Positions 2,311 to 52,789 of a stretch of DNA of 64,000 bases are shown piece by piece. Both the position numbers and the translations under genes were made by a program. How positions within the stretch are numbered: position 1 is the stretch's first letter; each line of letters begins with the position of its first letter. The notes beneath the pieces are model-generated. The model ran no database searches, was not told where the DNA came from, and was given only the letters and a program-made list of their open reading frames with translations. Source of the DNA: Galerina marginata (lineage: Eukaryota > Basidiomycota > Agaricomycetes > Agaricales > Galerinaceae); assembly GCA_023014335.1 (NCBI GenBank), contig JAECYW010000010.1, positions 2,418,001 to 2,482,000 on the forward strand, given 5' to 3'.

Positions 2311-4130
2311 GTCAAAAGCACTGCATTTGGAAGTAGAGACGCGTCGCGTCGCGTCATCGTATCAATCACGTGTCTGTTGAGATCATGATCAAACTTCGCC
2401 CTTCCCGTCCTTCCCGTCCTCGCCCATGGGGACCGACATCCATTCTTCCCTGCCTATTTCTTCCACGTACAGTTCTCTTTCGATCATCTACAGCATATAG
2501 AACTCACTTATGGCCTATATTCTCCTGGAATACTCAATGCCTTGAGGATCTCAAAGCTCAAACGACGTGTCTTTTTCGCCTGTCGTCTCTCTTCCAGGTT
2601 TCTTGCTCCTCATGAGCTCTTGGATGTCATAACGCAGGTTCTAGGTGAGCAAACAAGGTCTCTGGCATAAACTCTTCGCTAATCCTTTCTAAAATCCCAG
2701 CTCTTATTATGACGAGCTACCTTTGCTGGAGTGCGATTCCTCCGATACAAACTCACCAACACGCTGATCTCGCATCGTCGTTGAAATCGCAGCACGGCTC
2801 TTCAAGCTTCAGTAGGGGAACAAGGAAACAAGGTACGTGCATTCCAGTTCGATGCTTTTTCTGAAGTCGATGCTAAATACACTTCGTCGCTCTGTAGCTG
2901 GTTGTTGGTTCAGCTTGGCGCTACTTTTTACTCTGCAAGGCCAGCTCTTTGTTCGCGCGCGCACTTCGCGCAGGAGAGGTTACCGAATTCTACGCGAATT
3001 TCCTACCCCTCTACACCAGCTGATGCCATTTCTTTGATTGTTCTTACGCTACGCATCGAGGAGGAACACCCAGTCGCGTGGCCAGGTTCCGCATTCCCGT
3101 TATTTCGAATGCGCCGGTCATTCCGTAGTTAGTTGTTGGGGCTTCAAAACCCGCTACTCCTTCGACCCCTTCTATGAGCTCACACCCTGTAAACTATCGG
3201 GATGCTCGATCGCCGCGTCGACTCGTCTTCTGCCCCCTCGTCACCCTCCGCTCATTCTGTAGCAATTCTCTCCTTCAAACTTCGCTTCCCGTGCAAGTCG
3301 GTCCCAATGTTTGCCTCCGTCTTACCAACACTGATAAGGATGAGCTGCAGGCTCGCCCCGCTTCATTTCTCTAAAAACAACGCCGCGGGTGGGATGAGGC
3401 AGACGGCTCGGGTGTTTGTGCTGAAGATTCAAACGGGCTGGATATAGTGGAGGAGGACGAGGTAGAGTCGCTCTTCCTTTAAGACAGTCAACTGGTAAGC
3501 TCAGATCTCTTGTACGACCTCTAATTACTGCTGCTTTCTCTAGAATCGGACTCGTTTTTATAACGAGCCAGTTTTTCTTTCGAGTTTCCATATTATCACC
3601 ATACAGATACTCGATCTCCATATCGGTCCATCGTCCGCCGCTATTCCTCGAGCTGGATTCTGCGTCATTTGTCTGCGACCGGTCATGACCACCTGTCTCG
3701 AAATTTCGCTGACCCTCTCCCTTCCAGTTCCTAAATCCTTTACTTGTTGTTCTGCATTTACGCGGTCGTTGCTGCCCTCCCGCGCTCCACCTTCTTTGCC
3801 TCTGTCCCTCTCACAGGGCGGGTCGTACGTACGACCACTGGCCCTGGGATACGGACATCTTGCAATACCAGCAAGAAAATGCGCCCCGGGAGAGTTATCG
3901 TCGCGTTTCCGAGTCAAGTTTATGCGAGAACTTTGAGAAGGAGGGGCGTGGTGATAGGAAGCTGGTATTGATGTTGATGGTCTTGTCGGCGGGTGCTCGA
4001 GTTGCAGCGGCAGTGGGTGAAGTTTTGATCACGTCTGCAAGCGGATGGGAGAGCAGTGCGACGCAGAGCAAGGACGACGGGCTCGGCGGGGTGGGTAGGA
4101 TGTACTGATGGATAACGCTGCGCACTCCAT
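2311..4130 (+). repeat. Dispersed repeat family R, copy R1
   Basis: First of about nine related segments. Order: GCATTTGG block, GACGCGTCGCGTC palindrome plus CACGTG (2337-2374), pyrimidine-rich leader, CTCTTTCGATC, a block around AACTCACTTATGGCC, an intron-like stretch opening GTGAGCAAACAAGG, a short exon-like block, then a 65-nt intron-like element at 2833-2897 (GTACGTG to TCTGTAG). A GC-rich C/T-biased tail with the motif CTCGATCGCCGCGTCGACTCG (first 20 bases near 3205) follows. Reading frames are short and frameshifted relative to other copies. It could be a decayed gene family with its promoter or an unclassified element; I cannot name a product. The end is approximate. Confidence 0.55.
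2337..2374 (+). promoter_or_regulatory. GC palindrome plus CACGTG, promoter-like block of R1
   Basis: It contains ACGCGTCGCGTCGCGTCA followed 11 bases later by CACGTG. The same pairing opens R2, R3, R4, R5 and R8, and on the minus strand it precedes Q1. The regulatory role is inferred from conservation and position. Confidence 0.45.
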
Positions 4131-4800
4131 ACCAGCCTCGACTTCACGACATCCACGGTTGCCGATTAATAATCCAGTGGGAGGTCTACCCTTCCTTCTT
4201 TTTCAATATCAATGCAGTGTAGTTCGTATGGCGGTTAAAATTCCTTGTTCCGATGTTTAATGCGTGCTGACTTTGGTTTTTATTTGGCGCTAGAAATACT
4301 CTAGGTGTGAATGGTTGATATATCTTGGTCTGCCATTCTGAAGCTAAAGCCGCTGGTTACTTCAATTCGACTTTCAGAAACCAAGTAAGTAGTGAGTAAA
4401 GTTCGGGTGGGCTGTGGTTCATGAGCTCCAGATCAAACTGATATCTCTCATGGCAGTTTTTTATTACATCGAATTCGTTGATTACTAGGTTAAACTTGAA
4501 TATTAAATGCTCACATTATCTACATTTCACCGTATCCTACATGCCTACCATTCGATTAGCGCCATTTCCTTTCGCGTAAGCCCCACAATTGACAACTTTA
4601 GACTTCTTCCAGTAGCGACATAACATCGATCCTAACTTCTCAGATACTCTAGTCTATTATCAGTCTCTGAATGGTAAAGGGGAAAACAGATGAAATCGTC
4701 GATGGTGCTATGAGGGAGGATGAACATTGCGTAGGAGGAATAATGAATGAAATTATAACTTATAAGTGTAAATTATCTCGGATTGTTAAAACAGCAGTGT
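4131..4800. other. Spacer between R1 and R2
   Basis: AT-richer DNA with no coding signal that I can support; no paralogous sequence was recognised elsewhere in the window. Confidence 0.5.
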
Positions 4801-4804
4801 CGTC

Positions 4805-7740
4805 AAACGCGCTGCATTTGGGAATAGACTCGAGACGCGTCGCGTCAACGTGCATTTCGATCACGTGTCTGTTGCAATCAATTTTCGCTTCCCGCCATTC
4901 CCGCCTCCCGCGTACCGACATCCACTCTTCCCTGCCTGTTTCCTTCACGTAAAGCTCTCTTTCGAGCATCTATCATCTGCAGCATGCCGAACTCACTTAT
5001 GGCCTCTACTGTCTTGGAATTCTCGACGACTTGAAGATCCTGGCAACTCATACGACGCGGTGTATTTCCTTTTCGTGTGCCGTTTCTATTTCTTTTCTAG
5101 GTTCCTTGCTCCTCACCATCTCTTGGAGGTCAAAACGCAGTTTCTAGGTGAGCAAACAAGGTCTTTGGCTAGACTATTTGCTAATCTTTTCTAAGAACGA
5201 AAGGTCGTGTTGTTACGAACTACTTTGCTGGCCTGCGATTCTTCCGTGCTCGCAAGACCTCTGAATGCGCCGACCTCGTAACGCAACAATGGGCCTTTAG
5301 GGGAGGAACAATGCGGCTAGGTACGTACCTCCTACTTGATTTCTTCCTTTGAAGTCGAAGTTAAACACAATTCGTTGCTCTGTAGCACGTCGTTGGTACC
5401 ACTCTTTTCGCTTCAAGATAGGCTCTTCGCTCGCGATCCTTGGACTCTAAGCACAAGATTTCCGCCTTCTACGCGTATTTCTTGCCCCTTTACTCGGGCT
5501 TCTGCCGCTGCCTTGCTTGTTCTTCCGCTACGTACCAGGAAGGAGAGCCGCACTCGCGCAGAAGATTCTACATTCCCGTTGTTTCCCGAATGTCCCAGTC
5601 GTGTGGTTCGCCGTTGGGGCTCCAAGCCCCAGGATCCGCTCGCCCTTTGACCCCTCTTATAAGCCCCCTGTCCCCACCCCGCAAGCTACTACGGTGCTCG
5701 ATCGCCACGTCGACTCATCTTTAGCCACATCGCCACTACCTGCCTACCATTTCGCCTCGTCTACGGGGCTGGCGGGATCTTCAAATCCTCTACTCCAAAT
5801 CTACTCGTCCCCCTCGTCGCAGCCCTCCCGCGGCGCATCCTCTTTACTCAGCTCCAGGGCGAATCGTATGATCGCTGGCACTGAGATATGGGCATTAGGT
5901 GGTGAATTGCCTGCTGCAGCAAAGCTTTTGTCCCGTTAGCGGGTCAGATGTACTCGTATGATGGAACAATGAGACGGATCCGGAGGGAAGTGCGATAGGG
6001 AAGGGCGGGGTGGGGTGGGCGGCTGTAGCTAGTGCTAATCTTGCTGGCGTGCTGCTGGTACTGCCAGTAGGCGGGTAGTTCGCGACCCAGCCATAATCGA
6101 GGGACGAGTGGACGGTGCCTCGGCTAGCATCCATATAAGTCCGAATACGACGACGACAAGCCCTCTCGACCGCATACATCCACGCCTTGGCAACCCCACC
6201 GATCGATTTGCCTTTATTCTCGACCAGGTACGTGCCTCCTGGTCTGTCTTTTCCTTTGTATGCGATGCTGAACACCCTGTCGTTCTGTAGCTCGCTGTTG
6301 ATGCAAGTTTGAAACGTCTTCACCGTCCACAAGCTGGAATTCAACCCTTTGTTCATTTCAGACGGGCTGAAGTCCTGTCCCTGCCCACCCCGCCCGCCCT
6401 GGTGCACCGCACCGTAGTACCACATCGTCATTCGTTTAAACCAGGTGGATCGTACTGGCGCCCCTGGTCCTGTGTATTGGAATGGGGTCGGGCTACTGAC
6501 GAAGCCGCTGCTTTAGGCGTGTTTTCTTCATGTTAGATGGTGTAAGCAAACAATAAGTTGTGCAGTCTGCACAAGTCTTTTCTGTCCGTTTCACGTCGAA
6601 TTATCAATCGTCTCCTCTTCAGGACAGCGGGAAGGATATCCTGCGACCCGGCGTATCGCGTGCTAGAGGAAATGCCGCGGCAGAGATTTCGTTTGTGCGT
6701 TGGGCGTATAGGGAAACGTGCGACGGAGGGGCGGGGCACGTGGCGGGGTGGGGTGGTGCGAGTAGTGGTGCTGCAGCTTCTGGTGCGCTGCTTATAGTGG
6801 ATCGAAACAGCCGGGTTCGCAAGCTAGGTATACTCAAGGAGGAAGATAAATGTCATTCGGCTGGGACGCAACCAGTACGAATACGATAACGTCCCCGCCC
6901 CGCCTCCCCTTCAACCACAGGATCTGCTCTCCATTCTCCGTTCTCCGTTCCCGTCTCTACATCACCCCATGCATATCCCCGTCGCTATCCGCCTCCTGCC
7001 AGCGTGGTTGACTCGTGATACGCGGACCTACCATTCAACGGTTTGGGATCCATCCGTGCGGCTGCTGCTCAAAATGCAGACCCCTTACCCACCTCTTCCG
7101 CTTTCCTCCCGCTTCGAATGCATTGTCGACGCCCACCTCTGGCCCTAGTCAAACTCACTAATACGACCCGCAGCCGCCCGACCCGTCATCTGCACAAGTG
7201 CTGTCGACTGGAGCAAACCACACTCGTTCTACGGTTTCTGCTCGTTCCGAACTGTGATAACTCGCCGTGGCGCGTGAGGACGAGCCCCTGGGTCGGCGAT
7301 GCTGGGAGTCTTTCCCTTTTCTTCGTTTTGGCGGCTGTTTGGTGGGACAAGGAGACGTGTCACTGGGCAGGCGGGATTGGGCAGGCGGGATTGAGCACGC
7401 GTCGACCTTTTTTATCTTGCTAGGATGCCCGGAGACCCTCGAACGCGCCGGGATTTCCCTTCATGGTTCTAGGGTGGAGGGGTGAGCAAATAGGTATGTA
7501 CCTTTTAGCTTTACCTGCTCTAAAGTTGAAACTAAACGCTGTATGTCGTTCTGCAGCTAGCACTAGCGCTGCTTTGCTCCGTTTCAAGAATCGAGCCACC
7601 CTGCACGACTCCTTTGAACCTAAGCAGTGCATACCTGCTGCTATTCACAGCGCATCCGTGTCGCTATCCACGCCTCTAATCTGCAGCTGCTAACGCGGGT
7701 ACTTTCGTTTTCCTGGGACTCTACTCCTGCTGAACTTTCC
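4805..7740 (+). repeat. Dispersed repeat family R, copy R2 (with internal re-duplication)
   Basis: Same order as R1: GCATTTGGGAATA, ACGCGTCGCGTCA with CACGTG at 4832-4868, pyrimidine-rich leader, CTCTTTCGAGC, ATGCCGAACTCAC, a GTGAGCAAACAAGG donor-like site, and the 65-nt intron-like element at 5321-5385. That intron-like element recurs at 6228-6290 and 7493-7555, so the 3' half has been duplicated inside this copy. Long open frames on the minus strand here (for example 5895-6431) are GC-driven shadows. No product is recognised. Confidence 0.55.
4832..4868 (+). promoter_or_regulatory. GC palindrome plus CACGTG, R2
   Basis: GACGCGTCGCGTCA followed by TCACGTGTCTGTTG; same block as in R1. Confidence 0.45.
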
Positions 7741-8195
7741 AACAACCTTGATGTGGCAAGTGTAAATTCGGTGTAAATTCGGTGTCGTTTTCTCCACCCT
7801 TCATATTCTATTTATCATGCCGTCCTCTTCCCCACTGTGAATATCTTGCATCGTTTCAACGTCGTACAATTGATAGTAACGGTTCCCAGAGATAGCAAAT
7901 TGAAGTCAAATCGCTTCGAATATTCATCGGTCGGATTGTTTTTACTTTTTGAGAGTTATAATTAGTAATCTGCAACATCTTGTAGAACACACAGGCCTTT
8001 TTTTACACGTCGACTAATTTTAACCCAAGTAACAAAGTTATGGTAGTTGGCCGCTAGGGACAGCCACACAGCACCGCCTTGTGAATACACAGACCACGGA
8101 GCGACTCACGTTTGCTTCGTTCCTTACCCTCCCACTATCTATCAGAATCACTGAATCCTTTGTTCAGCTCCGAAATTTGCTGGTGTCGCTTGGGT
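7741..8195. other. Upstream region of the NACHT gene
   Basis: It holds a direct duplication of GTGTAAATTCG near 7761-7784 and AT-rich sequence. It is likely the promoter and 5' leader of the gene starting at 8196; no discrete site can be defended. Confidence 0.35.
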
Positions 8196-10417
8196 ATGTT
8201 TCCTCGGAGCAACTTGAACATCAACGGTGGAGCCTTCACGCAGATAAACCAGATAAACAACGGGAATAGTGAGCAATGCTGGTCAACGACTTTCTTGGTG
8301 ACCTAAGACAACTAACTACCAAATCGTAGGAGGGTTCGAGCTTCTCAAGAACGCTGCTTCACCCGCTGCTTTCCACGATTCAGCCGATCGTCGTGATCCA
8401 CCGAAATGTCATCCCAATACGCGCGTCGCCATTGTGGAGAAACTCATGGGATGGGTTCACGGTCTCGATCCCGGAACACTGAACGCGCTCATCATATGGA
8501 TCTATGGACCTGCTGGGTCGGGAAAGTCTGCCATCGCACAGACAATCGCTGAACTTTGCGCCGAAGAGGGGACCCTCCTAGCAAGTTTCTTTTTCTTCCG
8601 TTCCGACCCCACTCGGAATCACTCCAGATCGTTGATTCCGACCATCGCCTACCAGATTGCCACACATTTTCCAAATTTCAGAGAGCGTATCACGGCAATC
8701 ATCGAAAACGATCCTCACATATTTAATCGCTCGCTGACGAAACAGATGACTTCCCTCATTATTGAACCTTTCCTAGCTCACGGAGATTCTGACATCCCAA
8801 ATTCCAGGTCCCTGATTATTATTGACGGACTGGACGAATGTGAGGACCGTGAAGGTCAACTTGACATCCTCCGCACGATCTCGAGTTCATTCCAGCAAAG
8901 TCATTTACCCTTTATTTTTTTAATTGCCAGTCGTCCCGAGTACGATATTACCAATGCATTTGGCGACGGGCATCTACAACAAATCACTTCCCGCCTCGCG
9001 TTAGACGATAACTACCAAGCATCGGATGATATCAGGCTATTCCTCAGGGACCAGTTCGCCCATATCAAGCAAAGTCACCCCTTAAAGGCACACATCGCGG
9101 ATGATTGGCCTGCGGAGGAGGTCTTGGATCAAGTCGTGGATAAATCATCTGGGCAGTTTATATATGCGTCTACTGTCTCAAATTTTGTGAAGTCTACTCG
9201 TCATCGCCCCCAAAACCGCCTCGAGATTGTACTCGGTTTGCACCCTTCGGGGTCGTTGCGCGATATGCCATTTGCAGGACTGGACGAGCTCTATCATCAT
9301 ATTTTCCGATCTGTTTTGAGTCTGGACGACGTTCTACGTGTTGTATCCTGGATTATACTCAGCTATTCGCACTATTCTCCTGACTGGTATATCCACCAGG
9401 TGGAGGATATGTTGTTGTTTGATAAGGGTGAAATCCAACTTTTATTTTGCGACCTCCATTCAATTATCAACATACGGGAAGATGACGGAAAGGGGTATCT
9501 GCATTTTTTTCATGCGTCCTTAGGGGACTTTCTTCTGGACGAGTCACGCTCAAAGAATTTGTACATTGATGCCCCCTTGCGATATGCCGAGTTTTGCCGT
9601 GCAATATTGCAGTACTTCCCCAGTCAGTATGCTACCTGTTCACATGCTTACTCTCATATTCATATGATGCACAGGGATTCCTACAGGATGTGTATCAATA
9701 TTTCAACTTCAGGACACCCTTGAGACCTGTATGAAGCTGGCAGAGCCAACCGCTGAGCTTCGACGAGAACTCTTAAACTTTAACATTACTCGATATTTTC
9801 AAGCAAGTTTTAGTCACGAAATCTTCTGGTGTGTGCCAAACATTCTCGATTCTTTCAAGCATTCGGTATGCAATAACACCTGATATTCTTGAACCTCCTC
9901 TGATCAATGATTTCTGCAGAAATTTACCGATGCGCACGACATTTTTTCTTATCATATGCGAATGTTCGAGGATTATGCAATCGCTCAATTAAAAACCTAT
10001 TACTCGGAACATCAATTGCTTTCCCTCATTGCGATTATTGGATGCCATTCTGATGGACTTGATGGTTGGAGGTTCGGTTGTGGGATCCATCGTCTGTTTA
10101 AGATTGGCCAAAGGGTCCGATGTATTGACCAGAACGGTCTTGGATGCTTGCCAATGGGACCTAAAACATATGGTATACTCGCCCCTGACAGCTACCTCGA
10201 ATTTTTGAGATCATTTCTCAACGACAGCGCTGGATCAAGAGTTTGCATCCTAGACGGCCAAAAATATGCCAGTGCGGCGCTATATGTTCTGCAGTACACC
10301 TGCCCTCCCTCCGAAAAACAGCACCAACTTTTCAAAGTAGCTACCCACCGCCACGTACCTGCGTTTAAAATTCTTCCATGGAAATGGCACCGAAAAAAAC
10401 CAGAAAGAACGTGTATT

Positions 10418-39520: not shown

Positions 39521-42500
39521 ATGACTGCCAGTAATCGAAATATGCACCGTTTCTCCATGTATGAGTCCCGGAGGAAAGAGCAGCCCAATAAGGCTAGAAG
39601 GATCCAGGTATGGTGGAGGCGCGTGTTGAAGGTCCGGGAGGCGAAGAAACCTCTCAGGAGGATTTTTGAAAGTGACGTAACGGGTTTAACAGGGCTGAGA
39701 TGCCTTGTTCTGATTGGAGTGCACGATGACGTGCTCGGGACATGGGCAAAGGCGATGATACAGCTTGGTCCTGGTAAGTTGAAACGATTTGGCACCTCAA
39801 TTCGTTCAATTTTATCGTAACATTAACAGAAGCATTTCTGGCTCGAGGCTTGGGTGAACAGAGCACAAGCTGGCTGGTGCTCATGCGGAAAGCGGCCTTG
39901 CTACTTGTTTTATCTCTGGCCTACGTACCCAGGTAGACATTCCATTTGTCGGATCGTAAAGGTACTCACTTTATTCTACAGATCACCAAATGCTTCGTTG
40001 TACCTGGACGTTCTGGTAGTTTTATTGTCGAACAAACAAGCCGTAGCCACCTCAGCTGCTCAAGGAAGAGCATTTTGTCAGGCAATCACAGCGTATCTCA
40101 TAAAGCAACAACTCTATCGCCTTCTCCGACAAGCAATGTCAAAATTAGTACTTTATAATACCTTCCCGCATTTTAATTGCCCAAACTAATGACCTTTTGT
40201 TCGCAGCCAATCGAGAACTCAACAAGCTTCCAGCCCTTCCTTACCTTATGCATGTTGCCACTGTCGACCTTCCCAGAAAATTCACCTCAATTCAAGAAAA
40301 TATGTCTCGGCATTTTTTCCCAGGTTTTGAGCCTGCCGTCGCTCCCAAATCGACTGCCGCTTGACTGCCCGCCCATTTTCCTCTCATACTTTTTATTGAC
40401 TACCCCGAATACAGTTAAACCGCTGATTCAACTCATAAGCGACAGACTTTCCGCTTGTTCCTCATCAAATCTTGCGGCAAATTTATTTATGGCTGTTTCA
40501 CCGCACTACAAAATGCTTTCTACCCAAGCGTTTGCTTCCTATCTTCAGCTTTCGGTAATGCTGTTTAACCGGTTCAATATCTCCTCGTGGCTTAATGCGG
40601 AATCAAATAACGAGGCCGGCTACAGGGACTCACGACTACAATTTTGCTTTTGTCATCCCACCCTACCGGTTACTGGCGAGACATTGCGGTGGATTCTGAA
40701 AATCCCCACCCCACAGCACATATCAGAGTTAATTAACCTCACACATTCGCAAGCCATCCTTCTGCCACACTTAGCGGCTTACCTGTTCGCGCTGACAGCG
40801 ATGCGGCCACCTTATCGACAGGAAATCCAGAATATTGTCCTAACAACTTCAAATGGTGGGCTGGTTGGAGAACTGTATCGTGAAGTCGTGGCGCGGTCGT
40901 CTTTGGGCCAGAAAGCGGATTCTATGAATGTATACGGTGCGTTTCGAGCTTACAAGTTACATTCATTCATCGTCTTCCTGCTTCAGAGTCACCTAGGGGC
41001 ATGCCCTGGCCCCCTATCATCTTTTTCGCTGATTTATATTCTCAAGCGCTGCACACCATGGATGATTACGAGTTCTTTGATATGGCACGTGGGAGCAGGG
41101 GTTGCAACCCGCTGACGCTGGAAGAGGTTGCCTCGTTCAGCGTGAAGCTGCTTAACATCATGTTTATGATGTACTCGCGGTATTCCGAGTACTGGAACGA
41201 GTCAAGTTCGATACAGAACACGTGTATTTCTTCGGATGTTTATTGCTCGTGGAAGGCGCTGAGGGAGAAATTAATCCGGTGCTTGTCGAGAATTCACGCG
41301 AGAGAGTAAGTAAATGCTTTCCGCTTTTTAGGTGAGGAATCTAATCTCTTTGGATTTAGTTCTAGACGACCTTTTTTGTTTCTGGGTCGCTGCCTCCTTA
41401 GGTCTGAACTTGAGATGAACACATTCATCGACGCTGCTGTGTATGTCTGTTTTATGTTTGCCTTTGTAACTTTGCCTCACGACATGTGCATCCAGCAGAA
41501 TCTATGAACAACGACCTTCCGGGACATACTCCAGAATGCCAAGCGACGTCACTCGCTACCAAATCACATCCATGTCGCCGCAATTGTCCATTTTCAAAAA
41601 GATTCCATTTGCCATTCCGTTCGAAGTGCGCGTTTCCATATTTCAGCACTTAATCGTAACTGACAGGGTATTGCACGGCTCTACTGAGCGGCTCAATTCC
41701 TTGGGGCACGATCAAAGGTTGACGGTGAGGATTCATCGGGAAGAAGTAGTTCTAGGTGGATTTCATCAGCTTGCCGGAGTCAATATGAATGCGCCTCTCG
41801 AAATAGTCATGACTGATCGATTTGGGCAAAAGGAGTGAAGCATTCATTTATTTTTCGTGCTTTAAACTAGATGTTTCTGACGTACCTTGGTTGGGTGAAT
41901 TTTTAGGGAGGAAGTCGACGATAGAGGTCACTTCAAAGAATTTCTTATGGCATTCTGCCAGGAAGCGATGTATGACGGTCTGTGGGTCCAAAATGAAAGC
42001 GACGAGCTGTATCCGACTACGCTCGGGTACGCAATTGAAGGTGCCTTTAGTTGTACACCCAATTCGTATCCAACTCTGACTGTCATTCTCTTTTAGCCAA
42101 CAGCTTAAACTGGTTTTGGTTCACCGGATATCTCGTTGGCAAAGCAATGTATGATGGGATTCTGATGCACGTACCGTTTGCTACCTTCTTTTTAGCCAAA
42201 GTAGGCTCGCTTGCAGTGTATGCACTGCCCTTGAACTTACAACGGAGACTAGTGCCTTGGCAGGACAAGTTGCTTCGACGACCTCTTCTCACTCGATCTG
42301 GGTCTTTATCGCCAACTTTTTTCCCTCAAACACTCTTCAAAGAATATTAATATCGAAGACCTTTCATTGCATTTTTCTATTACTGTCAATGGTGAGATTT
42401 TTAATAATAATAAAATCAACCTATTAATTTGGTGTCATCCATTAGAATCCGGAGTAATAAGAACGGTAGACCTCATCCAAAATGGCCATGAAATTGCTGT

Positions 42501-43271
42501 CACCAGGGAGAACAGGCTGCAGTATATCGACCTTGTTACTCGTTACCGCATGGATACCCAGTTCAAGTGGCAAAGTGAGGCTTTCCTCGCGGGTCTGTCA
42601 CATATAATTCAGCCGGAGTGGTTGAGGTATGTCTTCCACTTTATCCTTCTTATGTCAATGCGTTGTAATAAGAAAACAATGGGCAGGATGTTTGATCAGC
42701 GCGAACTTCAGATCCTCATTGCGGGTGCCCCTGGACCGATCGACTTAGACGACCTCCGGCGTCATACAATCTATCAAGGGATATATCATAACAGCCACGA
42801 GACAATACATATATTCTGGCAGGTATGTTCTACTAGTTCGCTACTTATAGCGTACCCTGTATGATTAACACGAACGTATCAGGTCGTCAATTCCTTTCAC
42901 CACTGGCAAAAACGGAGTTTACTGGCGTTTGTGACTCACTGCGATCGCCCGCATGTACTGTAAGTAGCTCCTTACCCTGTTATCTGCTCTCACAAATTTA
43001 ACGCTCCTTTAAACTACAGAGGATTCAAAGAACTAGTTCCAAATTTTACGATACACGACGATGGATCAAACGAAAATTGGCTGCCCACTTCAAACAGACG
43101 CGTTAATCTCCTCAAAGTGAGAGTGGGCCATTTTCTTTCCCCCCTTTGATTTCCCGTCGAGCTAACGCGCGCTTTCTTACGGCTCAGCTCCCTACATATA
43201 AAAGCGAACGTCAAATGCGTGAAATGTTGTTGGAAGCCATTACTACCAGAGCCGGGTTCGATTCTTCTTGA
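39521..43271 (+). CDS. HECT-type E3 ubiquitin ligase, UBE3C/Hul5-like, copy C (979 aa)
   Basis: Fifteen exons in the same positions and phases as copy B (39521-39773, 39830-39932, 39982-40147, 40207-40936, 40987-41305, 41360-41440, 41499-41834, 41907-42040, 42097-42200, 42253-42391, 42446-42626, 42687-42822, 42883-42959, 43020-43116, 43188-43271), giving 980 codons without a stop. It has an IQ-like segment RIQVWWRR near residue 30 and a shorter acidic loop in the middle. The HECT domain follows. The catalytic cysteine is present (codon 42940-42942, residue 914), but its context FVTHCDRPHVL departs from the usual TSCS/TNCS. The normally strict IDGGG reads VDDRG, and GRMxGKAMY reads GYLVGKAMY. 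The copy is open and spliceable, but several conserved HECT positions are relaxed, so its activity is less certain than that of copy B. Confidence 0.86.
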
Positions 43272-43379: not shown

Positions 43380-45000
43380 CGCACCTGTCTATATCATTAG
43401 TGGTCAGATAACAAATTTACCTGATGTTAGAGCGTTAGGGCAGGTTCAGCAAGCTGCTTCTCCTAAGGCAGCGGGGTCAGCGTTACCTCCTGCCTCTCGA
43501 ACTCCTCACCCTTCGGCTCGCCATCTATAACCTGGGCCTAGTAGAGGTAGTTGAATGGATTGGTAAACAGGAACCAAAACATCAGAATTACCTAAAGCCG
43601 CCATTGGTTCAATGATTTGCTTTCCCTGAAGCGTCGGTAGGCGGCTTCACCATCTCAGCTCGGCTTCCCAAGATTGGGCATGCGGAAGGGAGAAGTTTTC
43701 GGGGATGAGGCGGCCCCAGGGAATCTGTACGACGGGGCAGGTAAGGTAAGGTTCAGGAAACAAACAAACAACCGCGCATATATTTTACCTTGACCATCTT
43801 TCCTTTCTGCAGGCCGTGCCTCTTCGCGATTGTGAAACTTGCTGCATCCTGCAACGTTAACAATAACGGTGGAGATGTCGTGCTTATCAAGGAAGTCGGT
43901 GTGTACGAGGACTCTAGGAATTGTTAGCTAGGTTGGTAAATACGAAACGATGACTGATTTACCCAATTTTGATGCAGTTTCAAGCTGCTTTTCCTCAGAC
44001 GGAGGGTCAGTGACTTCTCCTGCCTATCGAATTTATAAATCTTCTCGCCGCCGTCCTTAACCAGGGCCTCGTAGAGAGAGTTAGCTAGATCGGTATAGGA
44101 AACGAAATAATAGATCTACCGGTAGTCGGCGTCGGTAGAACGATTAGCTTTTCCTAAGGCGGTGGTATCAGCAGCTCCATCGTCAACAGCTGGTCTCATC
44201 CTGCCTTTCTACTTCTCCGAACTTCGCCCCATCAGCATTAGCCAACTCCGTGATATCCTCCTCACTACACCCGATACTAGCAGACGCGAACACGCTCGTA
44301 TCTGCGCAGAAACTTCAGCTGGCGCACAGAGCTCGCGTTCTTGAACAGAAACGCGCTGACGTACGGGCTGCATATTCTCCCTGGTGAGGAACACCACCGC
44401 TAGGTCGGGCACGACGACGGCTTCGTAGAACCCGAGAAACAGACAGCGGCGGGCGATGAGAAGTGCGAGAATCCTTGTAGGTAACGCTTGAGCACGGATT
44501 GCCTGGGTATCGAGGCTGGGTTCGAAGGTGGGCGTCGGGGAGGATGCAGAGGAGGTCGGCTGTGAAGAAGGTAAAGACATGGGTCACATGGCGTCAGCGT
44601 CATCGTGCGTCGATGAGCCGTCAGCGTCGATGAGCCGTCAGCTAATGATGAAGACAAGAGACAGGCAGGATCTGAGGGAAATCTGAGTGCGTTCTCGGTA
44701 CTCTCGAGCTCACCGCCATCCTCGCCCAACTATTTCGTTTCTCGTGTTGTTGTCATCGTCCTGCAGGGCGGCGGGCAGCATTTCTTGCTCAGATTCCGGC
44801 TTAGTCCTTAGCATAGCCTTAAGAGAAGACGTATTGGTCACTAAAGCAGGAAAGAACGCAAAGAAAGGCCGGGAAGGATGCAGCAGGTGGCGGGCCTTGG
44901 AGGACGACACGCGTCAACTATCGTGGCTGTGTTGCTCCTTCCTAAAAGAGCAACCTTTCGCATCAATCCCGAACTCAGTGTCGTTGCAGTGTCGGCATGA
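43380..45000 (-). repeat. Duplicated segment Q3 (unknown minus-strand gene remnant)
   Basis: It aligns in order with Q1 (43720-43990) and Q2 (44200-44960). A 123-codon minus frame (44580-44209) contains ALLIARRCLFLGFYEAVV and a VSAQI block shared with Q2. Another stretch near 43910 reads LVHTDFLDKHDISTVIVNVAG. Exons cannot be chained with confidence. It sits directly behind HECT copy C, as Q1 sits behind copy B. Confidence 0.45.
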
Positions 45001-45169
45001 ATATTTTGATTTTATTCCCTAAACACCATGGGCGATAAAGATAGTGACACATCAGATGATCTGTCTATATCCTCCCTAATTTCGAACTAAGCCCCAAGTC
45101 ACGCATTGCTGGTCGAAAAAAAAGTCAGATGCAGGCATCATGCAGCCACTATGACAAAGTTGAGTACCG

Positions 45170-45425
45170 GCAGGACGCCATGCTCGCCGATGGTCCCGTT
45201 CCCCGTTTGCTTGGGACTTTACTTCGCGTTTAATGTGGCGTTGTCTACTCCGGGGCCCATCAGCATGGATTCAAAAACTACCCTGGCCGCAGCCACGCCC
45301 TGCCGCGCCACTTTCTTGCGGGCTCTTAAAGCATAGACATTTTTCTCAGGAAAGGTTCGATAAGATGCAGGATATTGTTTCCGATATTTTGACCAGCGTC
45401 GTAGCGTTGTAGGTAGAGCCATTGT
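45170..45425 (+). pseudogene. Fragment related to the PD-(D/E)XK-like protein at 54922-55542
   Basis: Plus-strand reading with stops: LADGPVPRLLGTLLRV, then CGVVYSGAHQ, then ALPRHFLAGS and SIDIF. This parallels ILADCPVHRLWGLSLLGTS, CGDVDSGALQ, TLPRDFLAGC and WDIDI in the intact minus-strand gene at 54922-55542. At least two stops and length changes make it a remnant. Confidence 0.6.
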
Positions 45426-45624
45426 TTTCATTACCTATCCCAGCTTTAATTAATGGCCTCGCTCCGAGTCCAGCCACTCGTCCTTGTGATATCAAGAAAC
45501 GTCTGACTTTTTTACCATTTTTGAAACGGAGAGTTCAACACCATAGAAAGTTGGTTGAAGTTATGGGTACACTAGTATGTTATATCTATGAAACGTTGAT
45601 GATAACACCACCGACTTTCTCAAT

Positions 45625-46675
45625 TCAAGGGCCTTCAGGTAAATCCACTTCATCTCCAAAGCGTGAAATGTGGCCTTGTCGAACGTGAACAGCGTTATCA
45701 CTTGCCCATGATAGAATTTTCTCGAAATTCCTGCATTGATGACGAGTATTAAAATCTGGGTACGGTGAATTAAAACCCCTGTACAAGGCATGAGACCATC
45801 CCCAGTAACAGAAGATAAGCTCCTCACTGGACCCATTCAAACGTAATCATGCCAACATCTGCTGAGCACATCAAACTTTGGCGGAGAATTTCCACGCAAT
45901 GGTCTTGAAATATTGGTCAACGCTAGAATTTACGCCAAAAGAAATTGGAATGTTACCTAGGTGCATTCGGAACAGCTCAGGGTTCACATGAAAGTCTGGA
46001 TCAGAAATTTCGTAGTACTCGCGGTAGCTGTACTTTCGAAGCCTATCCTGTTTTGAAACTCAGTTTATACAACGTCAGAAGGTTGATCTTCCTTTACCAA
46101 GCAGTGCAACTGGTGAGGAAATTCAAGGGACGCGAGGTATCCTCCTCCATCCGCGTCACGAAGCTTGACTTTTGAAGGTGTGACTTCTTTACCCAGTTTC
46201 AAGACTTGTTCTCGAGTCAGGCGGATGAATTTCACTGCAATTCAATTGTTGGAAGTCAGTCTCAGGCATCGGAATAAATAAACAAAACATACCGTCTTGA
46301 GATATTCTGCGCCAAGCAGCATCAATCTCTGGGGTGGGATATCCACGATAGATCGACGGATAGTTGAGGGTTCCATTCCATACTGTTAGTTCTTTATAGT
46401 ATTCCACAGCTATGTTGGCGGGAGCTACCCAAATAACAGTTTAGACGATATCTTCAGGACGCAAAATACGACGAACAATATACTGGGTTTAAAGGTCGAA
46501 CTTGAGCGCGAATCCAAAGAGAGAAAAAAAATATTGAGAGCATTAGCAATACGCCGTGAGTGAAATATGCCCTGTAACGCAGCCATAACTCTCGGTGTCG
46601 AGAATGTTGAGTATGTTTGTGGACAGTGGACCCTTGCCCCAGAAGTTGTCCAGTTACGCCGTCTTCTTCGTCCAT
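45625..46675 (-). CDS. UstYa-like (DUF3328) protein, candidate peptide-cyclising oxidase, 262 aa
   Basis: Six minus-strand exons (46675-46477, 46424-46293, 46234-46098, 46047-45957, 45903-45828, 45778-45625) join in phase to 263 codons including the stop. The introns are 49-58 nt. An N-terminal membrane anchor spans about residues 37-55 (YFTHGVLLMLSIFFFSLWI). Then come YSPANIAVEYY, YRGYPTPEIDAAW, VLKLGKE and the two HxxHC motifs that define the family: HQLHC (151-155) and HLDHC (185-189). PDFNTRHQCRNFE and DLPEGP close the protein. UstYa-family members are membrane-bound proteins that oxidise and cyclise core peptides of dikaritins such as ustiloxin, phomopsin and asperipin. The donor of intron 1 (GTTCGT) is unusual but gives the conserved YSPA junction. 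A Met ten codons upstream (46705) is an alternative start. The secreted repeat-protein gene at 48706 is the obvious candidate substrate. Confidence 0.87.
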
Positions 46676-48705
46676 TTGTGCAAGAGAAAAGTAGACCGGG
46701 GGCATGGTTATAGATGGCCAGACAAGGAACTATGATGTATGAATCAAGTTTGAGTGATGGGGGATGAAATTCCATGCACATTCATCGCCCATAAAGCACA
46801 ATCCAATGCCAAATATAGCATTCGGGTGTCTGCCACTTTATTGGATGAAGAAAGTCAGACTATTTTAACACCAGCCTATGATGCACTATGTTCAAAAATT
46901 TCCTTGGCAAGAAATTCCCTTTCGAATCTGTCTTAACTAGAAACAGACGCCGTGGGCTCCGGAGGAGAGCAGTCTCATTCCTTCTTCATGTAAAGCCCAA
47001 AGCCGTTTGCAAAATACTTGGCAAGGCCAACGGCCAGTTAACCCCATTGCAGAGCTTTAAAGGGGATGGATGGTAAAAAATAAAATTCGAATGCCTAATA
47101 CTCCTTGATGGACGGCACTTGTCTAATATATCTAGTCTGTGTACCCATTGCATAAACCTACCGTTTACATTGTACGCTTCATGACCGTGAATGAAATCAA
47201 CTTTTTGTTGTTTGTACTAATGACGCGAGTCGCGACCATTCCCGTGATGAGAACACTCAAGTTTCAGCAGGTAAGCAGTGCCAGTTGGGCATTGTTGTAG
47301 TAGGCCCATCTGGCATACCCTAGCAGATCAGGCTTGGCAAAGCTCCTATAGGGCATCAAGAAGCCGTGCCGTATAATTAGCCTTCCGAGTAAGGTGCGAA
47401 TGGATTGCTCAACCAGAAAGCGCGTTGGCACACAACCGTGCGCAGTCGCTGATGGGATCTACGGTATCTAATCTAATCGAGGGCTCAGGCTGTTCGGGCA
47501 TAGGTCACTACCACATCGTCATCAGTGCTTCCATACCGCAACATCTGAAATAAGGCCATGAGTTGACTCTTTCATCAGAGACCATACGCTGCTGGGGGCC
47601 ATCAGAAAACTGAAATTACCGGGAATCAAACTCTGGTATTGCTACCTTCAATGTGAATGCTCTACTTCTATTAAGCTTGGTTCCGTTCGGTTTTTGCCTT
47701 ACAGAGGCATACTACTTGGTATTGACGCGAGAGGGTAGGAAAACCGCCCATGTACGTTATAAAGGGTTTGGGTACAAATCATAATTTTTTCACCCTCGCA
47801 ATAGCTCAACTCGCCATACGGTTAACGGGTTTATCGCGACCAAATTACAGCCTACATGTACAGGACTGCCCGACTTGGCCATCTACCACAATTTGATTCT
47901 ATTTTACTACCCAATGTATGTTCGAACTTAGAATTTACCCAAATCTAATTGGTATCTAGTCAACAACCGCAACGAGACCTTTCTCTGACCCCCCGAGGGT
48001 TAGTTACCCACCAAACCCCCGTCCCCCGCAAAAAATCTGAGGAATTAGACGCATCATCCGTTGACGTCGCAAGTTGTGTACCAATCCCATGGCTTGCGTC
48101 CAATGTCTGTGTGTGGTGAGCGCTGGTGAGCGGTGATGATGACTGTCAATGGAACTGAAAGATCATTTCGGTTGATTTGATAAAAATAGCGTAGCTAACA
48201 GTAGCTTTAGACCGTGAAGAGTTTGGCATCTACAGCTGTTCTATTCTGCATAAGCCATTTGTGTCCATGTTCCGCAGATTCTGGAGGTTATATCACCGCA
48301 AAGTATCACGTCTCTAGTGAACTCATTGCAATTTGGTTGCCAAGTCTTTTGTAAATTGAACAAGTTGCCGACCAGAGCCCTATGCGGACCAGGTATCTCC
48401 TTTCAGGGTGATTTTTTTAAAGAGCATACTTCGGTTTTCAACCTTCAAAGCAGTTTGGATTGGGAACCTTGTGTCGTCTCATAATTGGTATTGAGATGCT
48501 CCGGAACGACTCCCGCAGTTAATGTAAATGTTTACCCGAAATTTAACCCGCTGAAATGGTCGGCTACACCAACAATATGGCGTCACTGATCGCGCCTGAC
48601 AAGCAAAGGTGAAGAATGCTTAAATACAAGGACAAAAAGTACAAAGGACTTCAGCAACTTTCTTCCACACCAAGTGCTACACATCCAGAAGACTTCATTC
48701 ACACA
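46676..48705. other. 2-kb region between the UstYa-like gene and the repeat-precursor gene
   Basis: No coding frame of note from about 47080 to 48580 and no domain recognised. It must hold the upstream regions of two divergent genes. A TATA-like TTAAATAC lies near 48619, about 87 bases before the precursor ATG. Confidence 0.45.
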
Positions 48706-50099
48706 ATGCAAATTTCTCGCGTATTTCTTGCCCTTCTTCCATTGTTGACAATCAGCGTCGCAATTCCTCTCGAATCTGCTAAAGCGGGTGGGTTCTCTAT
48801 TGCTTCCAATGGAAAGATTGTGAAACCGTGCATATACTAGGGTCCGCGTTTTCAAGGTACATTCGTGAGGGTATGCATATTATATTCATTTGGACGACAA
48901 GCTTGAACTAACACTACCAATAGAGTTGGAAGGCCCAGAAGCGGGCGGTAATTATGTTACTTCCAGTGGAATGATTTCACAGTAATGCCGTCAACATCTT
49001 AGGGATAAAATTTGAGTACGGTCGTGAGGGTATGTGCATTGTATTTGAACGCCTAACAAATAATTTAACGCCTTCAACAGAGATAGGGGGTGAGGAAGAG
49101 GACGGTAATTCTGTTGCCCCAATACAATCCCTTTAGAACCGACGTCTCTAACATTCTATCTAGGGATAAAATTCGAGTATGGTCGTGAGGGTACGTGCAT
49201 TGTATTTCAACGCCTAACAAATAGTTTAACACCCTCAACAGAGATAGGGAGTGGGGAAGAGGACGGTAATTTGTTGCCCCAATACAATCCCTTTAGAACT
49301 GACATCGCTCACATCCTAGGCATAAAATTTGAGTATGGTCGTGAGGGTACGCGCCTTGTATTTGAACGCCTAAAAAATAATTTAACACCTTCAACAGAGA
49401 TAGGGAATGAGAAAGAGGACGGTAAGTCTGTTTCTCCGGGTAGAAATGTTCTTAAACTGACATTGTCAACATCCTAGGGATAAAATTTGAGTACGGTCGT
49501 GAGGGTACGTGCATTGCTTTTGAATACCTAAAAAATAATTTAACGCCCTCAACAGAGATAGGGAGTGAGGAAGAGGACGGTAATTCTGCTGCCCCAATAC
49601 AATGCCTTTGAAACTGACATTGCTAACATCCTAGGAATAAAATTTGAGTACGGTCGTGAAGAAGAGGACGGTAATTTTGTTGCCCCCAATACAATCCCTT
49701 TAGAACTAACATCGCTCACATCCTATCTAGGGATAAAATTTGAGTACGGTCGTGAGGGTACGCGCCTTGTATTCGAACGCCTAACAAATAATTTAACACC
49801 TTCAACAGAAATAGGGAGTGAGGAAGAGGACGGTGACTCTGTTGCTCCGGGTGGAGATGCTCTTAAACTGACATTGTCAACATTCAAGGGATAAAATTTG
49901 AGTACGGTCGTAAGGGTACGTGCATTGTATTTGAATACCTAACAAACAATTTAACACCCTCAAAAGAAATAGGGGGTGAGGAAGAGGACGGTAATTCTGT
50001 TGCTCCGGGTGGAAATGCTCTTAAACTGACATTGACAACATCCTAGGGATAAAATTTGAGTACGGTCGCGGGAATTACATTCGGGACGGAATGAACTAG
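48706..50099 (+). CDS. Secreted multi-repeat peptide precursor assembled from micro-exons (RiPP-like), about 176 aa
   Basis: Exon 1 (48706-48787) encodes a signal peptide (MQISRVFLALLPLLTISVA) plus a short pro-segment. Then alternate A exons of 27 nt (first 30) and B exons of 24 nt: A 48841-48870, 49003-49029, 49164-49190, 49320-49346, 49478-49504, 49731-49757, 49889-49915; B 48924-48947, 49081-49104, 49242-49265, 49398-49421, 49556-49579, 49809-49832, 49967-49990. A fused 36-nt exon is at 49635-49670 and the last exon is 50047-50099 (stop 50097). Every junction is phase 1, with GT-AG ends and CTAAC or CTGAC branch-like motifs. Each A+B pair encodes the 17-residue unit GIKFEYGREEIGSEEED. GIKFEYGR occurs eight times; the final copy runs into GNYIRDGMN and stop. 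The first unit is divergent (GSAFSRYIRE). Hydrophobic/aromatic cores separated by acidic spacers behind a signal peptide are typical of UstYa-dependent precursors, and a UstYa-like gene is next door. No KR or RR site is present. Function is inferred. Confidence 0.8.
48841..50099 (+). repeat. Tandem array, about 158-bp period
   Basis: A-exon starts at 49003, 49164, 49320, 49478, 49635, 49731, 49889 and 50047 give periods of 161, 156, 158, 157, 96, 158 and 158. A degenerate unit precedes at 48841. The 96-bp unit has lost the A-to-B intron. The B-to-A spacers fall in two sequence classes (CCCCAATACAATCCC and CTCCGGGT(G/A)GAAAT types), a sign of higher-order duplication. Confidence 0.93.
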
Positions 50100-50382
50100 T
50101 CGTGGTGTGCATATTGCATCATTCAACCGAAAATTTAAAAAATTGACTGGAGGTTTTCAATAGGGACGTACCGACGGAACAGTGGTTGGTAATCTTTGGA
50201 CCCCTTTTTAATTGGGATTAACCTAATGTCTTCAGTAGAAGATCCCGTTTATATCGGCCTCGATTGTAGTAGAATCAAGTGATTTCTTTATTTCGAAGGC
50301 TGGGGGTACGATACTGGACTTTAAATGTGATAAATCTATAAAGTTAAGATTAAACTTGTTGCGCTTGAGCCTATTGAAAAGA

Positions 50383-50904
50383 TCACGAAGGAGAAAATTG
50401 CACATAGTTGTGCCAGTTCAGTTCCAAATCTACCTGCACCTCTAGCAGCAGCAGTGAATGCACAGATAGGGAATAAGCGCATCTGAAGGCTGGTGAGTTG
50501 GAAGGGGCTTTATTACAGCTGCAATCACCAGAAGGGGATACTCTTTTACCTACTCGAACAGTAGCTGGAGTATCAAGTGTACATATCGCTGTAGTGTAAT
50601 GTATATGAATATGCCATGGGTACTTTGCAGCGAAAGGTGAGGCAATGCAAGCCGAGGAAGTGAGAGAAAATAGAAGGAAACATAGGAATATCCATTCTTT
50701 GAAACATCGTTCTAAATAATGGGTGGCTAGGAGAATTTGTATTTTGTGAGTTATAAGAGGTATTTTCGAAAATGCCTCTTGACTCTTGAGAGCGCCAATA
50801 AGAGCGCCAACAGAGAAATCACCACGGTTTGGGTCAGCGTCAGTCACGTCCAGTGATGTGCCAGCTTGAGAAGCAGTTAATCGCGAGTGGAGTACTACGG
50901 TCAA
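50383..50904 (-). CDS. Hypothetical protein with an internal hydrophobic segment
   Basis: An uninterrupted 173-codon frame. A hydrophobic stretch EWIFLCFLLFSLTSSACIA lies near the middle, followed by a Cys-containing region with VGKRVSPSGDC. There is no paralogue in the window and no recognised domain. It lies 280 bases beyond the repeat-precursor gene in convergent orientation. If an unseen upstream exon supplies a start nearer the hydrophobic stretch, the product could be secreted. It may equally be a chance frame. Confidence 0.3.
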   Translation of the reverse strand: MTVVLHSRLTASQAGTSLDVTDADPNRGDFSVGALIGALKSQEAFSKIPLITHKIQILLATHYLERCFKEWIFLCFLLFSLTSSACIASPFAAKYPWHIHIHYTTAICTLDTPATVRVGKRVSPSGDCSCNKAPSNSPAFRCAYSLSVHSLLLLEVQVDLELNWHNYVQFSPS

Positions 50905-51075
50905 CGCAAAATTGGTAATTAATTAAATCAGTTCAAGAGAATGCATTGACAAGTTCAAAAGAGCTACGACTCCCGGTTGAGGGATTGATCAGCGCTGAGT
51001 GCTGATTGGGGTGCCTTAGGCACTTACCCTCTTCGGAGAAATCCGAAGGCAACGAGGCCGGGTCTGTGCGCATTA

Positions 51076-51268
51076 CAGCTAAATTCATAATGATAGGCCA
51101 CATCAAAAAGCTGTACGCAGACAGCCGAAGTGATCCGGCCAGCTGGCGGAGGTCAATAAATTTCTTCGGCTACCCTAGGAGCTCGGCTATCACGTCGCGT
51201 AAAAGATTTATGGACTCCGCACTGTCTAAGTTTTGATCTGGGGTGGCCTATCTTTATGAATTTAGCTG
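51076..51268. mobile_element. 193-bp miniature inverted-repeat element in S1
   Basis: The left end CAGCTAAATTCATAATGATAGG is matched at the right by the complement of CAGCTAAATTCATAAAGATAGG (first 20 bases shown in each case are alike save one); both arms continue with GCCAC. TA flanks both sides (51074-51075, 51269-51270). The duplicate S2 has GCGCAGTAATATAAACC with a single TA at the matching place, so it shows the empty site. There is no coding capacity. Confidence 0.85.
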
Positions 51269-51289
51269 TAATATATTGATAACCATCAC

Positions 51290-51765
51290 CCTCGGATCGT
51301 CTTCCGTTCTTCCTTTCCCCCACTTCATTTTTGGCATCCCTGGTCACTGCGCGTCGCGATCTTTATGATGCCAGACCTCTCACTATGCGCGTCTTGGAGT
51401 TATCTCCTGTGATCCTGTCTGAATCCTGCTACCTTCCTGCCTTGGCCATCTATCATCCTTCTCTGAAGACACGATTCAAAGTTCGAAGAAATTATGGCCT
51501 TCCAACAAGGTCAATAGCCTCTCAGTGATCGTCGCTGTGGGCGTTGAGTTATTAATGACTGTCTTTACAAGTCCCGGTACGCCATCCATGTTCGCCCTTC
51601 TTGTTCCTTAGGCAGACGAAACGACCCAGATACTCGCCCCCTGGTCCTGCATTCTTTCTTGGACGCCGTTCTGAGAGGATATTGCGTCACAATGTGCGAG
51701 GAAGGCTTCTTTTTCGATGACTCCTTCGGACCATTGTTCGTTTACGGGTTTACTGGTAGCTGAGC
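51290..51765 (+). pseudogene. Broken paralogue (S1) of the small unknown gene at 55745
   Basis: It matches the intact copy at GCATCCC(C/T)(T/G)G, CTTCCTGC, GTCGCTGT(C/G)GGC and the final block DSFGPLFVYGFTGS. An extra T around 51650 and earlier length changes break the frame. A 35-nt GT-AG stretch (51577-51611) stands where the intact copy has a 34-nt one. Confidence 0.6.
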
Positions 51766-52789
51766 GCTTGATTTCTGAGGTCTGCGGGTCCCCGAACCTA
51801 CGTATGACTCGCATCTGGTTCAGGGATAACGTACACTTGGTCAGTTCTCAAGCTAAAGATAGATAACTAATGCATTTCTGCAATCCTGGTAAGTCGGAAC
51901 GTCGTATTCCACCAACATTTCTTCATTTTGTCAATCTAGTCCTTGCTTTCAAGTGGTAATAGCGACCGTGTCCCCTTTCTTTCGTCAATGCCCGGTGATT
52001 TTTAGAGGTATGTTATATATCTTGTCTCTGCTGCGCATACTCGTACTTACTTGCTGTTAGTTAGATCTCACTGTTTTCCTTAATACCTGATTCTGAGAGG
52101 TACGTAGCATCCCTCATATCTGTGGCGTACACTCATCCATATTCGTTGTTAGCCGTTCCATCCTTTTGTTTTCGTCTATACACACCTGCTTCTTCGGATC
52201 TGTGGGGCGGCATTAGCGTCTTCAAATAAATGGGAGGAATTTTCTGGTACCCCTTTATGGTCGGCTCAGCTAGGGTTCTTTTTGTATTTCCTTCTTTACC
52301 TTTTAGTAATATTATGACACGTTCACTTCGTCTGCCATAGCACTCGATCTCAGGCTCCGCCCACTTCAGCTAAGCTTCTTACAGATCGACACTTCCTTCT
52401 TCGAGTCTGGCCTGCCGTCTTCTTTCTACAAACCTTCTTCCAAGTCATTATTCGCGGACCTGGTCATTCCGACTCGTGTCGCTCTCAGTGGTCTCAGTCG
52501 ACGATAAGTGCTCGAAGCGTGAAGCCTAAATAAATGATACTGAATATCTGGTTTCGTACTATTCGGTTTTACATTGGCTACTTTACTGCCGGACAGTAAT
52601 CTGGCCCGCCGACGGACTGATTTGTATTGATTTCACATTTGTACGACGAAAAGAAGGACCGCAGGTCCACAGGCGGCAACAGATGCAGCATCGTTAATGA
52701 TTTAGTAAAAGGAAATGACAACGAAGGAGAGAAGGCTCATCCACCATCGCATTTCAAAACAAGTCAAAAACAAGACCAAAAACAAACTC

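Follow-up and report, generated by a model that had tools for sequence, protein, structure and literature searches.

We suggest that a gene of the mushroom Galerina marginata (basidiomycete, Agaricales) is probably a UstYa-type (dikaritin-like) multicore RiPP precursor gene, in which most of the repeated cores lie on micro-exons of their own. The gene was found in the window, a stretch of 64,000 nucleotides corresponding to C2:2418001-2482000 of the 69.3-Mb, 43-contig genome. A complete UstYa gene lies 2.0 kb off in divergent orientation, and hence a multicore precursor of the UstYa type is the most likely reading. We count for it the open spliced frame with its uniform phase, the repeat, the UstYa neighbour and the divergent precursors at other loci of the genome. 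Against it we count the missing KR/RR sites, the lack of an annotated homologue among the candidates scored, the frame that stays open on retention of the six 51-nt introns and the B exon, in which no clear constraint is seen.

Predicted exon structure of the precursor gene

The precursor gene occupies 48706-50099 of the forward strand. The TATA-like element TTAAATAC (48620..48627, +) lies 86 nt 5' of its start codon, and TTAAATACA occurs in the 64-kb window once on the forward strand and never on the reverse. An earlier note on this DNA had described a signal-peptide exon followed by micro-exons, about 17 exons in all, joined in phase 1 throughout and yielding eight GIKFEYGR blocks with acidic spacers. 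The same model is obtained on re-derivation by script: 17 predicted exons separated by 16 introns of 51-60 nt, with GT-AG borders in 16/16 introns and phase 1 at 16/16 junctions. The predicted spliced ORF is 531 nt long and encodes 176 aa with eight GIKFEYGR blocks.

Exon 1 (MQISRVFLALLPLLTISVAIPLESAKA, 48706..48787, +, 82 nt) encodes the putative signal peptide, judged by eye and from its likeness to other leaders. In the script-derived model it is followed on the same strand by the 30-nt exon A0 (48841..48870, GSAFSRYIRE) and the 24-nt spacer exon B0 (48924..48947). The 27-nt core exons are A1 (49003..49029, GIKFEYGRE), A2 (49164..49190), A3 (49320..49346), A4 (49478..49504), A6 (49731..49757) and A7 (49889..49915, GIKFEYGRK). 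They are paired with the 24-nt acidic spacer exons B1 (49081..49104), B2 (49242..49265), B3 (49398..49421), B4 (49556..49579), B6 (49809..49832) and B7 (49967..49990). Unit 5 is the fused 36-nt exon AB5 (GIKFEYGREEED, 49635..49670), which is intron-free inside; the A-intron and part of the B exon are absent and the frame is kept. The last exon, A8 (50047..50099, 53 nt including the stop, GIKFEYGRGNYIRDGMN), has a tail resembling the last exon of the paralogue on contig C40, DYIREDIN. In total 15 of the 17 predicted exons are 24-36 nt long, and all 15 are multiples of three and in phase 1.

The regular alternation of 27- and 24-nt exons proposed earlier is exact for six A exons (A1-A4, A6, A7) and for seven B exons, and it is broken by A0, by the fused unit 5 with no B exon of its own and by the last exon. 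The repeat unit, given as 158 bp, is not uniform, with core-to-core spacings of 161, 156, 158, 157, 96, 158 and 158 bp. A donor, a branch-like motif and an acceptor had been assigned to each of these micro-exons; the splice borders agree with this in every case, and a branch-like motif, scored with the loose YTVAY pattern, is present in 15/16 introns and missing from the first.

The array was found independently by Tandem Repeats Finder in three overlapping or adjoining rows (scores 925, 267 and 568). When a typed 157-nt composite unit was searched against the 69-Mb genome, a search that scores only the best candidates, 8/8 of the matches listed fell inside the window gene. A pattern search with one guessed codon spelling of the core gave no match; the real repeats use other codons.

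In the predicted spliced protein, ED stands before 7/8 cores and the core contains Tyr. Each core is followed by a single Arg; KR and RR do not occur in the protein (0 each) and RK occurs once, at A7.

The UstYa neighbour

The UstYa (DUF3328) oxidase gene lies at 45625..46675 on the reverse strand and is complete, with six exons and 262 aa according to its PF11807 match and gene model (46675-46477, 46424-46293, 46234-46098, 46047-45957, 45903-45828 and 45778-45625). The PF11807 match (E=6.3e-61) covers positions 3-220 of the 220 in the profile. One N-terminal membrane stretch is seen by eye, and the exon 1/2 junction uses the unusual donor GTTCGT. The protein is identical at 188/191 residues to the partial protein GALMADRAFT_78890 of G. 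marginata CBS 339.88; a search of solved-structure sequences with UstYa gave no match. Full-length relatives are present in Phlegmacium glaucopus (68% identity) and Gymnopilus junonius (63%). The gene is divergent from the precursor gene, with 2,030 bp between the start codons.

The window contains 325 stop-to-stop pieces that reach 70 aa or more; 17 of these and the two gene models were scanned with Pfam. None of the 17 resembles a tailoring enzyme, and the matches among them are of HECT and NACHT type only. They include a 473-aa ORF with an NPHP3_N/NACHT domain (8302-9720, +), an NLR-like protein, and a HECT ubiquitin-transferase fragment (42253-42861, +), which may be a relic or belong to a larger gene. 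No tRNA genes were found in 44000-52000 of the window.

Constraint on exons and introns

The six complete units of the window gene were compared pairwise. Mismatches amount to 23/405 in A exons, 97/765 in A introns, 31/360 in B exons and 131/800 in B introns. Three of the four variable sites of the A exon are at the third codon position; in the A intron variable sites are distributed 4/6/5 over the three positions and in the B exon 2/2/1. Relative to the consensus, the A exon carries 4 silent changes and 1 replacing change (expected replacing share 0.80, P ~0.006, the copies not being independent). The A intron carries 8 silent and 15 replacing changes (expected replacing share 0.74, P 0.23), near the neutral expectation, and the B exon 2 silent and 5 replacing (P 0.29), with no clear constraint. 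Judged from these substitutions, constraint is apparent on the core exons, is not apparent on the A introns and is unclear for the spacers.

These comparisons bear directly on the possibility that the 51-nt introns between A and B exons belong to the coding sequence, whether in every transcript or in a part of them, in which case the unit would be a 102-nt exon giving GIKFEYGREGTCIVFERLTNNLTPSTEIGSEEED. Retained singly, 8/16 introns lead to a stop inside the intron or the next exon and 8/16 do not, the latter being the six 51-nt introns and two B-type introns of 54 and 60 nt. Each of the six 51-nt introns keeps the frame and contains no in-frame stop, their joint retention leaves an open frame of 278 aa, and in two of the six (after A3 and A4) CTAAC is lost and TTAAC alone remains. 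However, the probability that a random 51-mer of such composition contains no stop is 0.26, and all six introns are copies of one. The homologous introns, A0-B0 in the window gene and the A-intron of C40, contain in-frame stops on retention. Moreover, the rate of change in A introns is roughly double that of A exons and is even over the codon positions, with the near-neutral ratio of silent to replacing changes given above. We therefore regard coding introns as unlikely. Splicing of the window gene appears to be supported indirectly, via the other genes of the same genome.

Precursor-like genes at other UstYa loci of the genome

A search for the UstYa family gave 49 matches, which were grouped into 22 loci (matches within ~5 kb). 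Eighteen of these, all but C39:229k, C1:3858k, C12:44k and C18:743k, were inspected, some in part. Precursor-like genes were recognised at nine: C2 (the window), C40, C10, C25, C23:177k, C23:553k, C28, C43 and C39, and all 9/9 are divergent from their UstYa gene. Word scans, which would miss single-core precursors, found no precursor at the other nine: C23:306k, C13:669k, C13:956k, C16, C33, C43:587k, C39:487-491k, C10:1335k and C2:2111k. Judged from match positions and scores, the UstYa pairs at C16:88468-90101 and C33:125546-127153 look like near-duplicates. The 48-bp and 38-bp arrays of L012 were considered as precursors and rejected, as they look like inverted mobile-element arrays; they lie at 3338-4133 and 7671-8422, repeated in inverted orientation with ~4 kb between the copies, an arrangement reminiscent of DNA transposon ends.

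The UstYa genes most like that of the window, by identity and not from a tree, are those at C40, C10, C25, C23:177k and C23:553k. The leaders of the precursors at these loci and of the window gene begin with MQ and have a common LLP or FLP stretch. Besides the window gene, the leader search matched C40 (E 1.5e-4), C25 (0.0012) and C10 (0.055); the two C23 leaders are outside its list and were recognised by eye. The element TTAAATAC is found at -84 to -87 in 5/9 precursor genes (C2, C40, C25, C10, C23:177k) and is absent at that position in C23:553k, C28, C43 and C39. Start codons of precursor and UstYa are separated by 1,578 bp at C40, 1,497 bp at C25, 3,685 bp at C10 and 537 bp at C23:177k, where the UstYa starts, other than that of the window, are match ends.

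The C40 paralogue (L033 6870-7451) adjoins the UstYa gene most like that of the window. Its A exon of 27 nt, B exon of 18 nt and last exon give ARLANYIRGENPEIGGAAFADYIREDIN on predicted phase-1 splicing, and upstream of them the gene looks partly degenerate by eye. The precursor at C23:177k (L018 566-1114), divergent from its UstYa gene, consists of six 57-bp repeats, GIDGVSFAHAYTSRAEDPA, with no introns between them and thus provides a contrast to the micro-exon genes within one genome. C10 and C25 apparently contain a single core, as read by eye, and at C23:553k the leader alone was read.

The precursors at C28 (L015 6393-7715), C43 (L020 1997-3638) and C39 (L013 6774-7292) have Trp-containing repeats (NIQW, NIIW, INW), and two tandem UstYa matches lie beside each. 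The C28 array has 13 exons of exactly 42 nt with one RGEDVDDGNIQWFK-type repeat each, and the C43 array 16 exons of 39 or 42 nt with one (K)RAEDVDQGNIIWS-type repeat each. Array introns in both are 50-65 nt long, and the cores are quite unlike that of the window gene. Exon identity is 0.78 vs 0.58 for introns in C28, and 0.77 vs 0.57 in C43, where 15/16 repeat exons were compared; the exon-collecting patterns fix a few bases and raise the exon values somewhat. Pairwise differences by codon position are 98/100/514 in C28 and 137/182/672 in C43, so that the third position accounts for 514/712 and 672/991, and variable columns are distributed 5/3/12 and 4/4/12. Both arrays combine conserved exons, in which most changes fall on the third codon position, with diverged introns. 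Pfam matches of the C28 and C43 precursors, including Mastoparan_2 and CHZ above the curated cut-offs, were rejected as repeat artefacts, since 10/12 had no single passing stretch and the families are mutually unrelated.

C39 has four RESTVDEASINWGK-type repeats on exons of 42-45 nt (with the K counted, as in the public model below, the first measures 45 nt) and, as read by eye, a short last exon after them. The public, separately made G. marginata gene model GALMADRAFT_1359447, the sole match to the C39 precursor among 7,992 scored candidates, joins the leader and the first three repeats as we predict. It is identical to the prediction at 64/67 residues and then follows a different reading. 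KR is present at every between-repeat junction in C28 and C39, and at 5/16 repeats in C43. In C28 and C39 the exon border falls between these two residues, with the K codon ending one exon and the R codon opening the following one, hence the Kex2 site between repeats arises only by splicing.

Genes of the same kind thus occur in apparently single-core, intron-free repeat and micro-exon repeat versions. The earlier note took the window gene for a secreted repeat-peptide gene of phase-1 micro-exons, and this is still the best reading, now backed by paralogous and analogous genes of the same genome. However, that reading is incomplete, as the divergent UstYa gene, which points to a likely pathway, and the sister micro-exon precursors were missed. 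The sister precursors make the window gene a member of a family and not a singleton.

The other loci also help to weigh the remaining alternatives. The window gene may be decaying or silent, a tandem array of recent origin whose expression or processing has ceased. The precursor protein has no annotated homologue at E<=1 among 7,990 scored candidates, unit 5 has no intron where other units have one, the C40 paralogue looks partly degenerate by eye, and the window gene has no dibasic sites. Nevertheless, the frame is intact through 17 exons, the eight GIKFEYGR blocks are invariant in amino acids despite silent changes, UstYa is intact and the promoter-like motif is common to four related genes, which makes decay quite improbable. 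We consider it very unlikely that the product is a repetitive secreted protein, e.g. of the cell wall or surface, with a coincidental UstYa neighbour: the repeats of the window gene do lack a Kex2 dibasic site, but the five further most window-like UstYa genes are each accompanied by a divergent small gene with a related leader, and in the acidic repeats of C28, C39 and C43 the cores are separated by R or KR. A non-coding tandem satellite with chance splice-like motifs would account for the 158-bp period and is practically dismissed by the leader exon, the uniform phase and the open frame, by the arrays beside UstYa genes at three further loci, in two of which the codon-position bias is strong, and by the lack of a second genomic place among the unit matches listed.

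Comparison with known systems

The published systems are compared here on the basis of excerpts from the cited papers. The UstYa-type multicore precursor that we favour resembles the dikaritins (ustiloxin UstA, phomopsin PhomA and asperipin AprA), which have a signal peptide, several near-identical cores, ED before the core and an adjoining UstYa-family gene; in UstA, ED and KR flank each core (PMC6514808). The window gene has the UstYa neighbour, and its predicted product has the signal peptide and several near-identical cores, with ED at 7/8 of them. Unlike in dikaritins, the cores lie on separate micro-exons, the dibasic KR after each core is missing with a single Arg in its place, and the host is a basidiomycete. 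Ustiloxin and phomopsin also have a tyrosinase and other tailoring genes, and the four asperipin genes do without them; no tyrosinase or methyltransferase was seen among the window ORFs scanned (17/325 pieces).

Epichloecyclins (gigA, Epichloe) likewise derive from a repeat precursor with a DUF3328 neighbour, and their core, with an N-terminal Ile and an internal Tyr, can be compared with G-I-K-F-E-Y (PMC9233826; PMC7317419). For such cores a cross-link of Tyr to a nearby residue has been proposed (PMC9233826). They differ in having 27-amino-acid repeats with kexin sites and a kexB gene in the cluster. In Galerina the genome-wide search for the kexin domain matched on C8 and C41 only, and none was seen by the window gene. 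Kex2-processed repeat proteins (KEPs), which occur in Agaricomycetes among others, are also secreted and repetitive and give short peptides. What defines them is the presence of KEX2 sites on either side of the cores (PMC9769878); the repeated cores of the window gene have no such sites. In the same paper cDNA was used to obtain intron-less KEP sequences (PMC9769878), and hence some KEP genes contain introns.

Tandem symmetric exons of 6-36 bp, in multiples of three, are known from the micro-exon genes (MEGs) of schistosomes (PMC3961193), and 15 of the 17 predicted exons of the window gene fit this description. No homology to these genes, which belong to a different kingdom, is claimed. Alternative splicing that varies the protein is also a trait of MEGs. 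The predicted exons of the window gene repeat one core beside a tailoring enzyme.

MSDIN/amatoxin precursors contain a single core, and these systems are not known to include UstYa. The MSDIN/amatoxin genes of Amanita and Galerina, agaric RiPPs, have a short intron of 52-58 bp, and the alpha-amanitin precursor of 35 aa is processed by POPB (PMC5159998).

UstYa-type repeat precursors and, in schistosomes, symmetric micro-exon genes are thus known. In the excerpts of the open-licence literature we found no description of the two combined, of introns inside UstYa-type repeat precursors or of precursors with one core per micro-exon.

Proposed mechanism and implications

We suggest that the removal of 16 short introns would join a secretion leader to eight GIKFEYG(R) cores, with acidic spacers between them supplied mostly by the alternate micro-exons. 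The precursor would then enter the secretory pathway, where a protease may cut beside the Arg after each core. Of all the steps in the proposed pathway, this cut at a lone arginine is the least secure. The divergent UstYa oxidase would cross-link the core, probably via its Tyr, to a nearby residue. As a result, several copies of one cyclic peptide may be obtained from each precursor protein.

Tandem duplication probably enlarged the array, the duplicated genomic segments beginning and ending within phase-1 introns. Each added unit thus brings a core exon and a spacer exon and leaves the frame unbroken. Likeness to C40 is seen in the A0-B0 pair (GSAFSRYIRE) and in the tail (NYIRDGMN), and the GIKFEYGR units lie between them.

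We tentatively propose, as a possible though not the favoured outcome, a class of fungal RiPPs in which the exon is the unit of chemistry, the core being a symmetric micro-exon and, in sister genes, the K|R site being made by the joining of exons. If this is true, exon skipping or unequal crossing-over in the introns could alter the number or mix of cores with no loss of frame, and retention of the 51-nt intron would give a second, longer unit.

Last but not least, mushroom genomes carry many UstYa-like genes, with 16 in Pleurotus (PMC8893723). Should their substrates be split into micro-exons, these could escape searches based on tandem repeats or existing gene models. Precursors of this type tend to be missed or cut short by gene prediction: no annotated homologue of the window gene was found, and the model of C39 stops at three of the four repeats. 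Since intron-free, one-repeat-per-micro-exon and apparently one-core relatives are found in one genome, the origin of the architecture is testable. Through missed or truncated precursors, the substrates of many mushroom UstYa genes may stay hidden, and a splice-aware search beside these genes would list candidate cyclic peptides.
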